In this document: positions 7,277 through 14,762 of the stretch, in pieces | Numbering within the stretch: the first letter of the stretch is position 1 | Layout of the letters: each line of letters begins with the position of its first letter | From: Clostridiales bacterium | Lineage (GTDB): Bacteria; Actinomycetota; Coriobacteriia; Anaerosomatales; SLCP01 | DNA: 64,000 nt | Assembly (NCBI GenBank): GCA_018333995.1 | Contig: JAGXSG010000028.1 | Coordinates: forward strand, 1-64,000 | Reading direction: 5' to 3' | Program-made: the position numbers and the translations under genes | The notes under the pieces: model-generated | The model's input: the letters and a program-made list of their open reading frames with translations, nothing else | Told to the model about the DNA's origin: nothing | Databases searched by the model: none

Positions 7277-8070
7277 GCTGGGCGATACTGCGCGCGACGT
7301 TGCGCCAGCGCCGCTGGAGCATGCTGTGGTACTCGCTGGGACTTATGTTCTACTCGTGGGTCATGGTGTGGTTCTGGCCGCAGTTTGGTGAGACGGGCTA
7401 TGTTGAGCTGCTCGAGAACATGCCACCCGAGCTGATAGCGCTCCTCGGCAGTTCTGCGGAGGATTTCGGGAGTCTTGGCGGTTACTTCGAGACGGAGTAC
7501 CTCGGTCTCATGTGGATACTCATCGTCTCGAGCGCCGTCATCCTCTACTCGGTCAAGGCGGTCGCCTCCGAGGTGGTGGCGGGAACGCTCGAGTTGACGC
7601 TCGCGCAGCCAGTCTCACGCGCGAGCTTCATCTTGGCGCGCATTGCCGGTCTGATCGTGGTGAGCACGCTGCTGACCGTGGCGACTTTCGGCACGATCCA
7701 GGTATTTGGGCCGATGTATGGGATAGACCTCGGTGCCCGGACGTTCGCGCTGCTGTACGGGGCTGGATTCCTGTTCATTCTTGCGGTGGGCGGGTTCGCG
7801 CTCGCGCTTTCCGCTGGCGCGCGGGATGTTGGCAGGCCTGTCGCGGTGGCGGGCGGCGTACTCGGGGCGATGTGGCTCGCGCACATGCTCGCCGAAGTCT
7901 CTGAGGTCGCGAAGTGGTTTGAGCCGTTCAATCTTCTCAAGTATTGGCGGCCTGCCGAGATCATCAACGACCGGACCGTGGGCGCGGAGGTATGGTGGGT
8001 GCTCACTGGCGTGGTGGTTACGTCGCTTGCCGTGACGTTCGTGCGCTTCATGCGCCGCGACGTCGCGTAA
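7273..8070 (+). CDS. ABC-2 type transporter permease
   Basis: Six hydrophobic segments are visible, near residues 20-38, 75-98, 120-145, 155-178, 185-205 and 235-258, with the long extracytoplasmic loop after the first segment that marks ABC-2 permeases. The motif E-V-V-A-G-T-L-E-L-T-L-A-Q-P-V-S-R corresponds to the coupling region that contacts the ATPase. It starts at ATG 7273, overlapping the ATPase stop (ATGA), so the two are translated together. The gene ends 27 bases before a convergent gene. Confidence 0.9.
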   Translation: MSWAILRATLRQRRWSMLWYSLGLMFYSWVMVWFWPQFGETGYVELLENMPPELIALLGSSAEDFGSLGGYFETEYLGLMWILIVSSAVILYSVKAVASEVVAGTLELTLAQPVSRASFILARIAGLIVVSTLLTVATFGTIQVFGPMYGIDLGARTFALLYGAGFLFILAVGGFALALSAGARDVGRPVAVAGGVLGAMWLAHMLAEVSEVAKWFEPFNLLKYWRPAEIINDRTVGAEVWWVLTGVVVTSLAVTFVRFMRRDVA

Positions 8071-8079
8071 GAAAGTGCC

Positions 8080-8092
8080 CCGCATTGTGCGG
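8080..8092. terminator. Small hairpin between convergent genes
   Basis: CCGCA (8080-8084) and TGCGG (8088-8092) pair around a TTG loop in the 27-base gap between the ABC permease gene and the convergent PEP synthase-family gene. It is short and has only a weak T-rich flank, so its role as a bidirectional terminator is tentative. Confidence 0.3.
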
Positions 8093-8097
8093 ATTCC

Positions 8098-10254
8098 TTA
8101 TGCCTGATCGGAGGTCGTGCCCTCGAGTGCGGCGAGACGGCGCTTGGTGTCCGCGAAGAATGGGAGCGACACACCCACAGCGTCGTAGCGAGTGGACACA
8201 AGCTCGCCGAGGAGTACTTCGTGCCGTGCGCTTTCGCCGCATGCGCAGGTAAATACCCCTGCCTCGCGTGCGGTCTGTGCCACGCGGTGAAGCAGTTCGA
8301 CGACGGCCGGGTGAGCCGGGTCGAAGAGGGGCGCCACTCGTTCACTTTCGCGGTCGAGCGCGAGCACGCACATCACGAGGTCGCTCACGCCCACGCTCAC
8401 AAAGTCGGCACCGAGCGCAAGCACCTCATGTAGCCGCATCGCCATCGCCGGGGTCTCGACTGAGACTCCCACGCCGACATCTACGTGCGGCTCGAGGCCG
8501 GACGCACGGATCGCGTCGAGCGCTGCGGCGTACTCGTGAGTAAATCGAACGAACGGCAGCTTGATGGCGACGGAGGTGGCGCCCGCGTCGAGAGCGGCTC
8601 GTATCGCCCGCAACTCGAGGGAGAATAGCTCAGGTTCAGCGAGTTCACGTCCGATCCCGCGCCAGCCGAGAAGGGGATTGCGTTCGTCAGGTTCTTCGTC
8701 CCCGCCGTCGAGCCGCCGGAACTCATCAGTCGGTGCGTCGAGGGTCTTGTACCATACGGGCCTTCCATCAAACATGCGGCACGTTTCAACGATGCCGTCG
8801 GTGATGGCCTCCTCAAGCGCTCGCGTCTTGCCTGTTCGCACCATCTTTCCAGGGTGTACGCCGGTTTGCAGCAGGAAGTAATCGTTTCGAAGCGAACTTA
8901 CGCCATCGGCATAAGGGGCGAGCGGGGCCGCTTGCGCCGGAACAAGAACCGAGACAAAGACGTTCATTCGGGTAGGTGGCAAGCCGCCCGTCTCGGCAGG
9001 GCTGATCGAGAGGTCGCCTTCGTAGACCACACCGCGGTATCCGTCGACCGTGACGACGTCTCCCTCCGCAAGCACACTCGTCGCCGAGCCGGTTCCGAGG
9101 ACGCACGCGACACCAAACTCGCGCAGGATGTTTGCCCCGTGGCTCGTCGCACCGCCTTCGTCGACTACCACGGCACCCGCGCGACGCAGGTGCACCGCGA
9201 GGTCGTTGGTGAGTCGGCGCGCCACGACCACCGCGCCGCGCGGCACGATCTCGACCTCGTTGCTCCTGATGTGCACGACCTCACCGGAGCCAACAGCGGG
9301 GCTCGCGCCGATACCCCGGAGGAGTACGGTGTGTTCGGCGATCTGAGGAAAGATCATCGCTTCATCCGGCGAGAAGACGAGTGGGCGTGATTGTAGGAGG
9401 TAGAAGCGTCCCGCCGCAAACGCCCACTCGATGTCTTGGGGAGCGCCGAAAAGCCGTTCGACTTCGCGTGTCCAACCGGCGAGCAGGGCGACCTCGCCGT
9501 CGGCGAGCTTGCGTGGACGGGAGGGCCCGCCGCCACGGATCAGCGTCACTCGCCCATCGGCAGGGGAGTACTCGTAGCGCTCGGGAGTAACCTCTCCGGA
9601 CACGAGATCCTCAGCCATCCCCTGTATCGCCTCGACGATGACGACGTCGGCCTCTCGACGTGCGGGGTCACGTCCGAAAGCGAGGCCGGAGCGCTCTGAG
9701 CTAATCTGGCGCTGAAGAACGACGGCGACCTCGGTCTTGCGCGGATCGTGACCAAGGTCTCGGGCGTAGTGAACCGCACGCCGGTTGAACGCCGATGCCC
9801 AGCACCGTTTCACCGCCGCGTAAAGCCCCTCGGGACTGTCCACGCCGGTGATCGACGAGAGCATGCCGGCGTAGCTCGCTGACGCGCTGTCTTCCACGGT
9901 TGCCGAGCTCCTCACGACGATCCCGCCGCCATAAGTGCTGAGCTCAGCGAAAACTTCGGCGAGTCGCGTAGCCAGGGCGAGGGGAACCGGGGTCGCGACA
10001 ATCGCCGCCCGGACCGCGTCAGCGGCGAGTGAGCGCGCGTGCGTGTCGAGTGCCTGGTCGCCGAGGGCGGTGATCGCCGAGGCGATTTCGGGCTCGGTCG
10101 TGAAGCGCGCGAACTCCGAAACTGGAACCACCCAGGCGGCAGGAACGGGGAGGTCGCTCATTGCGAGGCGAGCCAGATTGGCCGCCTTGCCGCCGACGGC
10201 CGACGCATCGAGCTTCGCAGCTTCGTGGAGGGTGATGATCGTGTCGTCAGGCAC
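8098..10254 (-). CDS. PEP synthase / pyruvate phosphate dikinase-family enzyme
   Basis: Family members interconvert pyruvate and phosphoenolpyruvate through a phosphohistidine. Three domains are present. The N-terminal ATP-grasp part starts with G-G-K-A-A-N-L and carries V-V-R-S-S-A-T-V-E-D and L-Q-S-R-P. The phosphohistidine domain has G-G-A-T-S-H-G-A-N-I-L with the transfer His. The C-terminal PEP/pyruvate barrel has L-R-N-D-Y-F, N-P-L-L-G-W-R-G, V-E-T-P and a Cys-containing C-A-C-G-E end. At 718 residues it is shorter than E. coli PpsA (about 790). In the barrel the usual S-N-D-M/L-T-Q is replaced by V-S-D-L-V-M, so substrate preference or activity may differ. It stands alone on the minus strand and is divergent from the arsR-type gene. 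PEP synthase is my first choice. Confidence 0.78.
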   Translation of the reverse strand: MPDDTIITLHEAAKLDASAVGGKAANLARLAMSDLPVPAAWVVPVSEFARFTTEPEIASAITALGDQALDTHARSLAADAVRAAIVATPVPLALATRLAEVFAELSTYGGGIVVRSSATVEDSASASYAGMLSSITGVDSPEGLYAAVKRCWASAFNRRAVHYARDLGHDPRKTEVAVVLQRQISSERSGLAFGRDPARREADVVIVEAIQGMAEDLVSGEVTPERYEYSPADGRVTLIRGGGPSRPRKLADGEVALLAGWTREVERLFGAPQDIEWAFAAGRFYLLQSRPLVFSPDEAMIFPQIAEHTVLLRGIGASPAVGSGEVVHIRSNEVEIVPRGAVVVARRLTNDLAVHLRRAGAVVVDEGGATSHGANILREFGVACVLGTGSATSVLAEGDVVTVDGYRGVVYEGDLSISPAETGGLPPTRMNVFVSVLVPAQAAPLAPYADGVSSLRNDYFLLQTGVHPGKMVRTGKTRALEEAITDGIVETCRMFDGRPVWYKTLDAPTDEFRRLDGGDEEPDERNPLLGWRGIGRELAEPELFSLELRAIRAALDAGATSVAIKLPFVRFTHEYAAALDAIRASGLEPHVDVGVGVSVETPAMAMRLHEVLALGADFVSVGVSDLVMCVLALDRESERVAPLFDPAHPAVVELLHRVAQTAREAGVFTCACGESARHEVLLGELVSTRYDAVGVSLPFFADTKRRLAALEGTTSDQA

Positions 10255-10333: not shown

Positions 10334-10355
10334 CATATGAACACACGCTCAGATA
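10334..10355 (+). promoter_or_regulatory. SmtB/ZiaR-like operator overlapping the repressor start codon
   Basis: Imperfect inverted repeat: CATATGA (10334-10340) and TCAGATA (10349-10355) match at five of seven positions around an eight-base centre. The ATGAACA-N5-TCAGATA pattern is the type bound by zinc-sensing SmtB/ZiaR repressors, recalled from the family. It lies just downstream of the candidate -10 and covers the first six codons of the repressor, so bound repressor would block initiation at its own promoter. Confidence 0.55.
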
Positions 10356-10726
10356 ACAGACAAGTTGTAGAGTGCGCCGACGGGTGCGACGTGACCCTGG
10401 TTGACGCCGATGCTGTACGAGACGCCAAAGCCGCACTCCCGGCCACGGCTTGCCTCAAGGTGATGGCGGACATCTTCTCCGCGCTTGCGGATCCCACGCG
10501 ACTGAAAATCCTCTCGGCGCTCGCCGAACGCGATCTGTGCGTGTGTGACCTTGCTGAGGTCAGTGGCGTAAGCCAGTCCGCAGTCAGTCATCAGCTCCGT
10601 TTGTTGCGGGACCGGGACCTCGTGGTGTTTTCCCGTGACGGGAGGCGCGCGGTCTACACCCTCTCAGACGCCCACGTCGCCACACTCCTCGAACAGGGAC
10701 GCGAACATGCGGGTGAGAGGGCGTGA
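10337..10726 (+). CDS. ArsR/SmtB-family metal-responsive repressor (zinc-sensor type)
   Basis: A winged-helix repressor that releases DNA when it binds metal. The recognition helix is V-S-Q-S-A-V-S-H-Q-L at residues 78-87. Two metal sites are visible. The alpha3N type has Cys13 and Cys17 in the N-terminal arm and Cys68-Val-Cys70 in helix 3. The alpha5 type has Asp111, His113, His124 and Glu127, an exact D-x-H-x10-H-x2-E pattern. Having both is the ZiaR arrangement and points to zinc, possibly with cadmium or lead. ATG 10337 is the start of the conserved region; longer in-frame extensions run into the divergent neighbour. The stop codon overlaps the GTG of the downstream metal ATPase (GTGA), so repressor and pump are translationally coupled. 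Confidence 0.92.
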   Translation: MNTRSDNRQVVECADGCDVTLVDADAVRDAKAALPATACLKVMADIFSALADPTRLKILSALAERDLCVCDLAEVSGVSQSAVSHQLRLLRDRDLVVFSRDGRRAVYTLSDAHVATLLEQGREHAGERA

Positions 10727-12960
10727 GCACCGCCGAGTCGACATCTGTCGCGACAGCAATCTACCGGCTGATCGGACTTGATTGACCGGATTGCGCGCGC
10801 ACCGTGGGTGCGGCGGTAGAGCGGGTCGCGGGAGTGGTGAGTGCCGAGGTCAACTTTGCCAGCGGCACCATGGTGCTTGAGTACGACCCCGCTACCGACC
10901 CCCGCGAGCGGGCACTCGAGATCGTGCGGGCGACTGGACACCGTGTCGAACCGCTCGCCGGTGTGCGGACCGTTGAGAGTCCGACACCCACGTCATGGTG
11001 GACCCAGTACGGACACCTCGCATCGACTATCGCGTCGGGTGGACTGCTCGCGCTTGCGTGGGGAGTTGGGCTTGCGCATTTCCCGGGCGCTTCCTTTGTC
11101 GAGGTTGCCCTGTACGTGCTTGCGATCGCGACGGGGGGGTGGCTCGTCGTGCGTCGCGCGATCGTCTCATTGCGTGCACGTTCACTCGACATGAATGTAC
11201 TGATGACGGTCGCGGTCATCGGTGCCGCTCTGATCGGCGAGTGGGCAGAAGGAGCGCTGGTAGTATTCTTGTTCGCCTTCGGGGGGATGCTCGAGTCCCG
11301 CTCGCTCGAGCGCACGCGACGTTCGATCCGCGACCTCATGGACCTTTCCCCCCCGGTTGTACGCGTTATTGAAGAGGGGCGTGAGATCGAGCGCCTTGCG
11401 GCCGATGTTGTTCCCGGCACCTTGGTGCGCGTCCGTCCCGGTGAACGGCTGGCCCTCGACGGCGAGGTCGTCCGGGGATCGTCCGCGCTCGACGAGAGTC
11501 CGATCACAGGTGAGTCACTGCCGGTCGAAAAGGGTCCGGATGACCCGGTCTGGGCTGGCTCCCTTAACACGTCAGGGGTTCTTCAGATCCGCGTCACCGC
11601 TCGCGCGCAGGACTCCACGTTGGCGCACATCATCTACCTTGTAGAAGAAGCGCAGGCCTCCAAGGCACCGGTACAGCGGCTTGTTGACCGCTTCAGTTCC
11701 GTATACACCCCAACCGTGATCGCGCTTGCGGCGTGTGTGGCCCTCGTTCCCCCAATTGCGGGAATGCTTGCCGGACAGCAGTGGGGTGGTTTCGACGAGT
11801 GGTTTTACCGAGCGCTTGTCATGCTTGTGGTCGCGTGCCCATGTGCGCTCGTGATCTCAACACCGGTCTCGATCGTATCGGCGATCACGCGTGCAACACG
11901 TGATGGCGTGCTCGTCAAGGGAGGCGCGCACCTCGAGACTGCCGCCCGGGTCAAGGCAGTCGCATTTGACAAGACGGGAACACTCACGCGCGGCTTACCA
12001 GAGGTTGTTGATGTAATCGCGCTGCGGGGTGCGGCTGTGTCTCGGATCCTGGAAACGGCCGCGGCACTCGAAGGTTTATCGACACATCCGCTCGCATCAG
12101 CGGTTGTCCGAGCCGCTCGCGGGGATGAGGGCAGCGTCACTCAAGCGTCTTCTGTTCCGGCGGGCGAGGAGGTGAGCGGTTTTGAGGATATTCCTGGCCA
12201 AGGAGTAAGCGGTGTTATCGCGGGTACCCGGTATGCCGTGGTAAGCCCCGGATGGGCGGCCGCGCATGGCGTTCTCGACCAGACCGCTCAAGCAGAGGTG
12301 GAGGGTTTGGAGAGTAACGCGCGCACTGTGCTCGTCGTAGTCGCCGACGGAAGCGCCATCGGACTCATCGGCGTGGCTGACGAGGTACGTGCGGAGTCAC
12401 CCGCAACGGTTGAGGCGCTTGGCGATCTCGGCATACAGCACGTCGTTATGATTACTGGCGATAATGACCGGACAGCCGCGGCGGTGGCGCGCTATGCGGG
12501 CGTACGGGAGTACCTAGCACGTCTCCTCCCCGCCGAGAAGGTCGACGCGGTTCGCGCGCTCAAAGACCGCTACGGCACTGTGGTGATGGTCGGCGACGGG
12601 ATCAACGACGCTCCCGCGCTCGCCGCCGCCGATCTTGGCATTGCCATGGGTGCGGCCGGAAGCGACACCGCGCTCCAGACCGCAGACGTCGCGCTGATGT
12701 CCGATGACCTCACCCAGGTGCCGCGCTTCCTCGACTTGGGGCGGCGCACGGTCAGAATCATTAAGCAGAACATCGCCACTTCCATCGTGATCAAGTTTGC
12801 GGTGCTTGGCCTGGCAGCGAGTGGACATGCGACACTATGGATGGCCGTGTTTGCGGACACCGGAGTGTCGCTGCTCGTGATTCTCAACGGAATGCGTTTG
12901 TTGCGGGACCGCCGTCATAAGTGGAGGACTTCCGGACCTCAAGTGGAAGGTACTTCGTGA
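10723..12960 (+). CDS. zntA: Zn/Cd/Pb P1B-type ATPase with an in-frame TGA at a metal-site Cys (putative selenoprotein)
   Basis: ATP-driven metal efflux pump in the cytoplasmic membrane. After about residue 80 it is a normal P1B-2 ATPase: actuator T-G-E, TM6 C-P-C-A-L, D-K-T-G-T-L-T, the H-P motif in S-T-H-P-L-A-S-A, G-D-G-I-N-D-A-P, and a TM8 D-T-G that marks zinc/cadmium/lead specificity. The frame is open upstream to GTG 10723, which overlaps the repressor stop by four bases, except for TGA at 10783-10785. The residues around it read Y-R-L-I-G-L-D-(TGA)-P-D-C-A, exactly the HMA metal motif with the first Cys codon (TGC) as TGA. Read as selenocysteine, residue 21 is U and the protein has 745 residues. 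Without recoding, translation would have to restart at GTG 10804, which has no ribosome-binding site and lies in a hairpin loop, and would make 718 residues. A nonsense mutation or sequencing error remains possible. Confidence 0.85.
10783..10812 (+). promoter_or_regulatory. Candidate bacterial SECIS hairpin at the in-frame TGA
   Basis: The TGA at 10783-10785 is followed by CGCACC (10798-10803), loop GTG (10804-10806) and GGTGCG (10807-10812), a perfect 6-bp stem. The loop starts 18 bases after the TGA and its first base is G. Bacterial SECIS elements are known to need a stem of at least four pairs, a small loop with G in the first two positions, and a loop 16-37 bases from the UGA; all three hold. 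The surrounding sequence is GC-rich, so a hairpin could also arise by chance. Confidence 0.5.
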
Positions 12961-13050: not shown

Positions 13051-13401
13051 GTGGACAGCGAGCGGTTCATGAGGTTTATGGCGGCGTGGGCGCTCGTACA
13101 TGAGACCGCCGACGACGGCTGGAAGGCCGCGGTCGCAAGGGGAAGCGGGCAGGAACCCACAGAGATGAAGGAGGGTCCGGAGGCATTCGTCGACGGGCTC
13201 TCGGCCATGATTGCAGAGGAAAAGGAGCGCCTGAAGACTGAGCTCGCTGAGGGCCGCGACGGATCGGGCGGAACCACCGGCGCACTGGCCGAGAAACTCG
13301 ATGGTCTCACGTTTGAAATGGGCGAGTTGCGTGGTCGCATCGAGACGCTGCAGGCTTCGATCGACGCGCTCGCGGCTGCAGCGGACGTCGATCGCCGCTG
13401 A
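13051..13401 (+). CDS. Small coiled-coil protein of unknown function
   Basis: 116 residues from GTG 13051, preceded by AGGGAG. The N-terminal 30 residues are aromatic and helical (R-F-M-R-F-M-A-A-W), and the C-terminal half is a predicted coiled coil with regular Leu/Ile spacing and E-x-L-x-G-x-L-R heptads (about residues 75-110). It lacks a signal peptide. The stop overlaps the next gene's ATG by one base (TGATG), so it is coupled to the ABC1/UbiB kinase. Its layout recalls phasin-like proteins seen near ABC1 kinases, but that is only a guess. Confidence 0.7.
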   Translation: MDSERFMRFMAAWALVHETADDGWKAAVARGSGQEPTEMKEGPEAFVDGLSAMIAEEKERLKTELAEGRDGSGGTTGALAEKLDGLTFEMGELRGRIETLQASIDALAAAADVDRR

Positions 13402-14762
13402 TGTCACGCCGCTCGCGCAGAGTCGTCACGTCACTAGCTCGCCATCTCGTCCGCGCAAGCGTTGAGGCGCGCCTCGGCACGAGTTCGCGATCGCGTCGCA
13501 GGGCCGCGTTCGCGCGCGCGACGCGGCTTGCGCTCGAAGAGCTTGGGCCAGTGTTTATCAAACTCGGGCAGGTCGCTTCGGTGCGGCCGGATGTGCTCCC
13601 GCCGGAGTTCATCTTCGAGCTGGAGCGTTTGCAGGATGCGTGCCCTCCGGTCGCGTTTGCCGACATCGAACGCGCGGCGAGCCGCTCGCTCGGTCGGCCC
13701 CTTGCTGACGCGTACGCTGAGTTCGACCCGGTGCCGGTTGCGGCAGCCTCGATCGCTCAGGTTCATCGTGCCACGCTGGCACGCGATGTGCGGCCGGTGT
13801 TCGGCGCGGTGCTGCCAAAAGGTACCACGGTTGCGGTCAAGGTAGTCCGGCCGGAAGCCGCCGCGAGTATCGCGGCCGATCTGGTCGAGGCGCGTCGGCT
13901 GATCGCGCGAGCGCACCGCTTCGGCCTCAAGCGATACCTTGACGCACCGAGTCTGCTCGAGGAGTTTGCCGCGTCGCTCGACAGTGAGCTTGATCTGCGA
14001 AACGAGGGGCGGGTAGCTGACAGGTTCGCGTTTGACTTCCGAGACGACCCGCTCGTTTTCGCGCCTCGCGTCGCGTGGCCCCTGACCACCCGATCCGTAC
14101 TGACGATGGAGTTTGTCGATGGGTGGCGCCTCACCGAACTTGATGACGCCGTTCGGAAGGGGATCGACGCGTACAAGCTTGCCCTGCACGGTGCGGAGGT
14201 CTTCATGCGGCAGGTGCTTGTCATCGGCCGGTACCACGCCGATCTCCATCCAGCAAACCTCTTTGTCACGCCTGATTCGCGGATATGCTATCTCGACTTC
14301 GGGATCGTGGGGGTGACGCGCCCAGAGGACCGTCTCGCCATCGCGCAGGTGCTCGCGGCGACGGTGTACCGCGACGCCGATCGCGCCCTGCGTTACTCGG
14401 CCGAGCTCGGGCTTGTGGTCCCACCGGAGCGTGAAGCAGAGGTGCGCTCGCGGGTCAACGCGCTGATGGAGCGCACATTGGGAGATGGCGGACACCCGGC
14501 GGATGTGCGAGGGTTTGCGATTGGCTTCCTCGGCGTGATGGCTGACTCCCGCGTTCCTATCCCACCAGGATATGGTCTACTCGTAAAAGCGCTCGTTACA
14601 GTCGAGGGCGTCGCGCGGGCGATCTATCCCGAGATTGACATCGCGCAAGCGGCGCGACCTTTCGCGACGAAGCTCATAGCGGCCGAGATGACGCGTCCCG
14701 CGCGCATCGCCGAGCGTGTTCCGGGCGCGCTGCGGGCGGCCTTGAGGGAGTACGTGCGATAG
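13401..14762 (+). CDS. ABC1/UbiB-family atypical kinase
   Basis: Atypical protein-kinase-like ATPase linked in other organisms to isoprenoid quinone lipid metabolism. The family KxGQ motif is F-I-K-L-G-Q at about residues 50-55; the Ala-rich nucleotide loop is A-A-A-S-I-A-Q-V-H, followed by V-A-V-K-V, the catalytic-loop H-A-D-L-H-P-A-N and the metal-binding L-D-F-G. 453 residues is within the family range, but the C-terminus lacks the two transmembrane helices of proteobacterial UbiB. It is translationally coupled to the coiled-coil protein upstream. A role with menaquinone or membrane lipids is inference. Confidence 0.88.
   Translation: MSRRSRRVVTSLARHLVRASVEARLGTSSRSRRRAAFARATRLALEELGPVFIKLGQVASVRPDVLPPEFIFELERLQDACPPVAFADIERAASRSLGRPLADAYAEFDPVPVAAASIAQVHRATLARDVRPVFGAVLPKGTTVAVKVVRPEAAASIAADLVEARRLIARAHRFGLKRYLDAPSLLEEFAASLDSELDLRNEGRVADRFAFDFRDDPLVFAPRVAWPLTTRSVLTMEFVDGWRLTELDDAVRKGIDAYKLALHGAEVFMRQVLVIGRYHADLHPANLFVTPDSRICYLDFGIVGVTRPEDRLAIAQVLAATVYRDADRALRYSAELGLVVPPEREAEVRSRVNALMERTLGDGGHPADVRGFAIGFLGVMADSRVPIPPGYGLLVKALVTVEGVARAIYPEIDIAQAARPFATKLIAAEMTRPARIAERVPGALRAALREYVR

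Follow-up and report, generated by a model that had tools for sequence, protein, structure and literature searches.

The gene for a predicted heavy-metal export pump, found in a 64,000-nucleotide stretch of an Anaerosomatales genome (here called the window), is interrupted by one in-frame TGA, located where the first cysteine of its metal-binding motif would be expected. Is this codon a stop, an error, or a site at which selenocysteine (Sec) is inserted? An earlier note on this DNA had favoured the last reading. From the evidence given below, we conclude that selection has kept both UGA codon 21 and the bacterial SECIS element (bSECIS) beside it in a genome with complete Sec machinery, and that the codon is almost certainly read as selenocysteine in the pump of a cadCA/zntA-type operon.

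Table 1. Features of the repressor-pump locus; positions refer to the window
Feature	Position	Strand	Basis
ArsR/SmtB-family metal-responsive repressor, 129 aa, operon gene 1, stop TGA 10724-10726	10337..10726	+	NCBIfam NF033788, 98.7 bits (cut-off 55)
Predicted Sec-containing P1B-type heavy-metal ATPase, 745 residues including Sec21, true stop TGA 12958-12960	10723..12960	+	HMA, E1-E2_ATPase and Hydrolase domains; 4umv; TIGR01525, TIGR01512
HMA (heavy-metal-associated) domain, residues 14-73, predicted metal site D20-U21-x-x-C24	10762..10941	+	PF00403, E 1.2e-9; aligned with GMDCAAC of 4umv
Putative Sec-UGA codon for residue 21, where the U-P-D-C of the HMA domain begins	10783..10785	+	In-frame TGA; homologue comparison
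Predicted bSECIS core hairpin, arms 10798-10803 and 10807-10812, loop GTG 10804-10806	10798..10812	+	Pairing; published bSECIS limits
GTG, sole candidate downstream restart, within the SECIS loop	10804..10806	+	No ribosome-binding site

The pump gene and its operon

Translation of the pump frame revealed a single internal stop, the TGA of codon 21, in agreement with the earlier note, which had described the frame as otherwise open from GTG 10723 to 12960. Its context is G-L-D-(TGA)-P-D-C-A, so that it occupies the first Cys position of the HMA CxxC motif. GTG 10723 overlaps the stop of the repressor gene (GTGA), has GAGAGG a short way upstream, and is the sole ATG, GTG or TTG between the nearest upstream in-frame stop (TGA 10714-10716) and TGA 10783. 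The repressor contains the stretches LCVCDLA and DAHVATLLEQGREH, which we take to resemble the metal sites of CadC/SmtB. By its gene content the operon is of the cadCA/zntA type, with an ArsR/SmtB repressor followed by a predicted P1B-type Zn/Cd/Pb ATPase export pump. Downstream of the pump, between 12961 and 14762, lie a gene encoding a small protein (MDSERFMRFMAAW...; 13051-13401) and, at 13401-14762, a kinase-like gene of the ABC1/UbiB type. A start (MRFM/MRFF) similar to that of the small protein also occurs 3' of the pump at two other loci (L122 and L123), and the downstream gene neighbourhood seems to be conserved.

Among solved structures, the zinc pump 4umv gives the best match (full-length alignment, E 3.6e-120). 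The pump of the window scores 598 bits against TIGR01525 (cut-off 346) and 508 bits, again above the cut-off, against TIGR01512. The protein possesses CPC in the membrane, TGES, DKTGT, HPL, GDGINDAP and, near the C-terminus, ADTG; this is the complete Zn/Cd/Pb motif set and argues for a P1B ATPase of that type. Assignment as a ZntA/CadA-type Zn/Cd/Pb pump, with the metal specificity predicted from motifs and homology, is therefore supported, and the 4umv and TIGR01512 matches bear out the zinc/cadmium label that the pump had been given from its letters. It shares with the ZntA/CadA exporters the full-length alignment, the HMA domain and the CPC and ADTG transport-site motifs, and differs from them in its predicted Sec in place of the first Cys of the HMA CxxC; it falls below the cut-offs of both enterobacterial ZntA equivalogs (NF008262 and NF033775). 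Sec also stands in the metal motif of other proteins with a small HMA fold, namely the UxxU metal-binding protein family NF041115 and MerP-type mercury carriers. Those proteins, however, are stand-alone domains, whereas the HMA of the window is fused to a P-type pump, and its similarity to NF041115 is weak (E 5.5e-6, far below the cut-off of that family).

Were the TGA an ordinary stop, the locus would be a pseudogene, or translation would begin at GTG 10804 and yield a pump lacking a complete HMA domain; a standard ORF list does give a 718-residue ORF from that codon. Against this, no ribosome-binding site was found in the 20 bases preceding GTG 10804 (GACCGGATTGCGCGCGCACC), as had been stated for this only possible restart, while GTG 10723 is coupled to the repressor stop and has GAGAGG upstream. 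The comparisons with relatives, in which 46 homologues carry TGA at the same codon amid protein conserved on both sides, together with the SECIS count (32/32) and the Sec machinery described below, make an ordinary stop very improbable.

Codon 21 among related pumps

Most of the 60 related genomes searched contain an orthologue of the pump, commonly with one internal TGA, and the picture from a 298-genome sample of the class matches. Among 68 ATPase homologues, codon 21 is TGA in 46 and Cys in 21, and one has lost the domain. The orthologues without TGA have TGC or TGT, so that in homologues keeping the motif the sole replacement of Sec is Cys, never Trp or Gly. The GLDUPDC context of the TGA is conserved throughout the order (codons read in the fetched loci), and GVDUPDC, GLTUADC or GITULDC is found in Natronincolaceae, Desulfotomaculaceae, Syntrophomonadaceae and a second pump clade of the same order. 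TGA stands at the matching codon in Coriobacteriia, Alkaliphilus, Natronincola, Desulfotomaculaceae and Syntrophomonadaceae. Selenoproteins are recognised, among other properties, by UGA-containing homologues in other organisms and by a UGA that aligns with Cys between flanks conserved on both sides, and both were found here; the conservation of the flanking residues noticed in the window holds across the homologues.

A tree of the same 68 proteins (46 Sec, 21 Cys and one without the domain) was built from the transport core, excluding the HMA region. The Sec/Cys label changes 10-11 times overall, at least 7-8 times on well-supported branches, and 6 times within the order, where TGA and TGC/TGT thus alternate at codon 21, the pattern for which an alignment of homologues had been suggested. 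Repeated exchange of Sec and Cys, with no other residue at the position, is the hallmark of a genuine selenocysteine site. Random stop codons and decayed N-termini, which would have spoken against selenocysteine, were not the pattern in relatives; the flanks are conserved and only Cys codons alternate with TGA.

The window comes from a draft assembly of 34 contigs, and a TGC misread as TGA would be one way to arrive at such a codon. Since many separate studies have produced independent assemblies, dozens in all, with TGA at this exact codon, a read error has next to no probability, which speaks against the corrected TGC that the earlier note had allowed for.

Several further observations concern these relatives. 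Loci L124-L131 represent the second, divergent Sec-containing pump clade in the same order (GITULDC/GVTUMDC); one of its pumps (L127, genome G019) adjoins another pump copy, apparently without an HMA domain. In a close relative (L023, G002:C32:7074-8894) almost all of the HMA domain is absent from the pump, and the Sec codon with it, YRLT being joined to ELLGSEP; this may be a real deletion or an assembly fault. An extra HMA domain is present in 8/12 Cys-type orthologues (L028, L029, L030, L031, L035, L037, L138 and L140) vs 1/32 Sec-type ones (L137); the raw counts suggest a strong link, but with only four independent contrasts on supported branches, too few for significance, a sign test of Cys state against the extra HMA was not significant. 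An internal TAG or second TGA in some relatives was considered as a recoded codon and rejected, since in those loci that were inspected it lies where the protein naturally ends. A scan of viral contigs with a GLDUPDC DNA-motif pattern gave 16 matches, none of them in an ATPase on translation, and these were set aside as chance or unrelated. A plasmid search with a short DNA query gave no match, and one with the pump protein gave only relatives of < 60% identity.

The SECIS hairpin and the selenocysteine machinery

The hairpin downstream of the TGA has a 6-bp stem and a 3-nt loop with G first, 18 nt separating the TGA from the loop, and the folding energy of the stem-loop segment is -13.5 kcal/mol. 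It lies within all the published bSECIS limits, namely a loop of 3-9 nt, a stem of 4-16 bp, G in the first two loop positions, a distance of 16-37 nt from the UGA and an energy of <= -7.5 kcal/mol (PMC13188914). The geometry and distance claimed in the earlier note therefore stand, with the correction that the folding energy by itself is unexceptional in such GC-rich sequence (single-sequence folding, z -0.7 to -1.4). It is the comparison across relatives, not the folding energy, that shows the predicted element to be other than a chance hairpin.

For this comparison positions were counted with the T of TGA as 0, and a perfect 5-bp stem was scored. Positions +15 to +19 pair perfectly with +25 to +29 (5-base loop) or with +29 to +33 (9-base loop). 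Such a stem is present in 32/32 distinct GLDUPDC genes, against 1.8 expected when synonymous codons are redrawn according to codon usage in the clade, and in 0/29 Cys relatives (0.26 expected on the same basis). In each of the 32 genes the hairpin begins 12 bases past the TGA and has a G-U loop. Three stem types occur (CGCAC/GTGCG, CGCGC/GCGCG and CGGAC/GTCCG), each with its exact complement, so both arms have changed together. Within the short-loop set one pair alternates between G-C and A-U (6 and 5 genes); the base pairs of the long-loop set are invariant, and pair counting there adds nothing. Both registers are found in the window's own family, short in G000 and G003 and long in G001, G004, G006 and G008, from which it follows that the 3' arm has shifted by four bases with pairing kept. 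The register tracks the protein, which has Gly/Ser-Ala in the short form; in the long form Lys-Ser prevails, and Met-Ser and Ala-Ser occur as variants. In the second clade (L124-L131) the downstream stem looks different, for example GGCCA...TGGCC or GGCGA...TCGCC around GTTC-GAGAA-GAAC.

The loop contains GTG (once TTG) in 31 of the 32 genes, the exception being L018, with GTC. Could the UGA then act as a selenium-gated switch, giving the full pump with selenium and a stop after 20 codons without it, so that the amount of pump, or the presence of its HMA domain, would follow the selenium supply and gating might outweigh Sec itself? Failed insertion only 20 codons past the start would be cheap, the loop GTG could in principle restart an HMA-less pump, and the locus L023 provides a natural relative of that form. 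The GTG of the window has no ribosome-binding site, though, the loop codon is explained by the G-U loop rule of the SECIS and is GTC in one Sec gene, and Cys as sole replacement points to the role of the residue as a metal ligand. We consider such a switch unlikely and keep it as a rival reading.

The window genome (1.95 Mb, 34 contigs, 98.9% complete) was searched for the Sec machinery, whose absence would have told against selenocysteine. All four components were located: selA (508 bits), selB, the tRNA-Sec gene selC (74 bits; ARAGORN anticodon TCA), and selD, which adjoins selA and matches TIGR00476 with 364 bits and one TGA inside the match. A complete set of SelA, SelB, tRNA-Sec and SelD is a further property by which selenoproteins are recognised. 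The selD TGA lies in frame at the known Sec site of SelD, SKAG-U-AAKWGPEDL (L002, G000:C2:1000-15000, about 7775-8815, minus strand), which makes selD a selenoprotein gene as well. Because selD itself has an in-frame TGA at this site, the genome very probably uses UGA as Sec in other genes too. A Sulf_transp (YedE-like) gene was also seen near selD, selA and selB.

A lone in-frame TGA would look identical if the host read UGA as an ordinary sense codon for Trp or Gly. TGA is, however, the normal stop of neighbouring genes, both pump and repressor terminating with it, and this refutes a sense-codon reading; in addition, the aligned residue is always Cys, never Trp or Gly, in homologues keeping the motif, and a tRNA-Sec with anticodon TCA is present. 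Its probability is vanishingly small. The maintenance of UGA and SECIS in a genome with complete machinery argues instead that the codon is read as selenocysteine.

Three other genomes are informative in this respect. G022 (99% complete) encodes a pump of the Cys type, and searches of it for selA, selB, tRNA-Sec and selD gave nothing above cut-off; a genome that had abandoned selenium would be expected to look like this. G053 and G055 have kept the TGA and hairpin, and neither assembly yielded selA, selB or a clear tRNA-Sec. Both possess selD with TGA, and the contig ends a few kb past it, where selA and selB sit in other genomes; missing contigs are therefore the likely cause, genuine loss of selA and selB being a less likely alternative. 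In these contigs (L158, 1785-5150; L159, 1-1842) selD is followed by two genes, one PIN-domain-like, the other large, of low complexity and similar to that of a polymorphic secreted protein; the contigs end inside this large gene.

Relation to known selenoproteins and proposed role

Sec-containing heavy-metal ATPases are already listed as predicted selenoproteins, with ABB15669.1 as representative (PMC9312934, PMC13188914, PMC5029168). By 2016 they comprised 32 genes in 25 organisms (PMC5029168), and one case was recorded in an ocean survey (PMC2398784). By their published description, the window pump shares with them the TIGR01525 family, the UxxC motif, the single Sec and the basis of prediction, Cys/Sec pairs plus SECIS. 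It differs in being common through an order of Coriobacteriia, and in the SECIS register switching and repeated Sec/Cys exchange documented here. Full-text searches of the open-licence literature found no report joining selenoproteins with Coriobacteriia and, among the matches listed for Anaerosomatales/OPB41, none on selenoproteins either. The pump would thus join an already predicted family, and its order, Anaerosomatales in the Coriobacteriia, appears to be a new occurrence by the literature found. Cultivated members of this order have been described (PMC9686372). No experimental test of predicted Sec metal pumps, nor a measured benefit of Sec, was found in the same literature, and a 2026 review holds that the roles of such selenoproteins in metal detoxification need more investigation (PMC13188914).

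In the mechanism that we propose, metal would release the ArsR-type repressor and permit transcription, and ribosomes would start at GTG 10723. SelB with Sec-tRNA would dock on the hairpin (loop CGUGG), Sec would be placed at UGA codon 21, and translation would continue to 12960. By homology to ZntA, metal would be bound in the cytoplasmic HMA domain by Sec21 and Cys24, with Asp20. This domain would be a tuning device and not the transport path; the L023 orthologue in G002, having no HMA, suggests that the domain is inessential to the pump family. A selenolate is softer than a thiolate and ionised at lower pH. For that reason the likely benefit of Sec would be that soft ions (Cd, Pb, possibly Hg) are captured more tightly and more quickly, with an altered response to oxidation. 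The change in metal affinity and redox behaviour that had been claimed from the window is plausible chemistry that goes beyond the evidence. Several close relatives have Cys instead of Sec in the pump.

Gene callers that take the TGA of codon 21 as a stop will get the first 27 residues wrong in pumps of this kind. Selenocysteine is mostly discussed as a catalytic redox residue; at the metal-binding site of a pump it would test the natural use of Sec as a metal ligand in transport, and the repeated natural Sec/Cys exchanges offer matched pairs for doing so. Tentatively, and with confidence well below even, we suggest that the Sec-HMA specialises the pump for soft metals, with Hg, Cd or Pb favoured over Zn, or places it under selenium gating, and that selenium supply may directly set heavy-metal resistance in this lineage of subsurface anaerobes. 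If so, the rarity of a second, Cys-type HMA in the Sec forms would mean that one Sec domain does the work of two.
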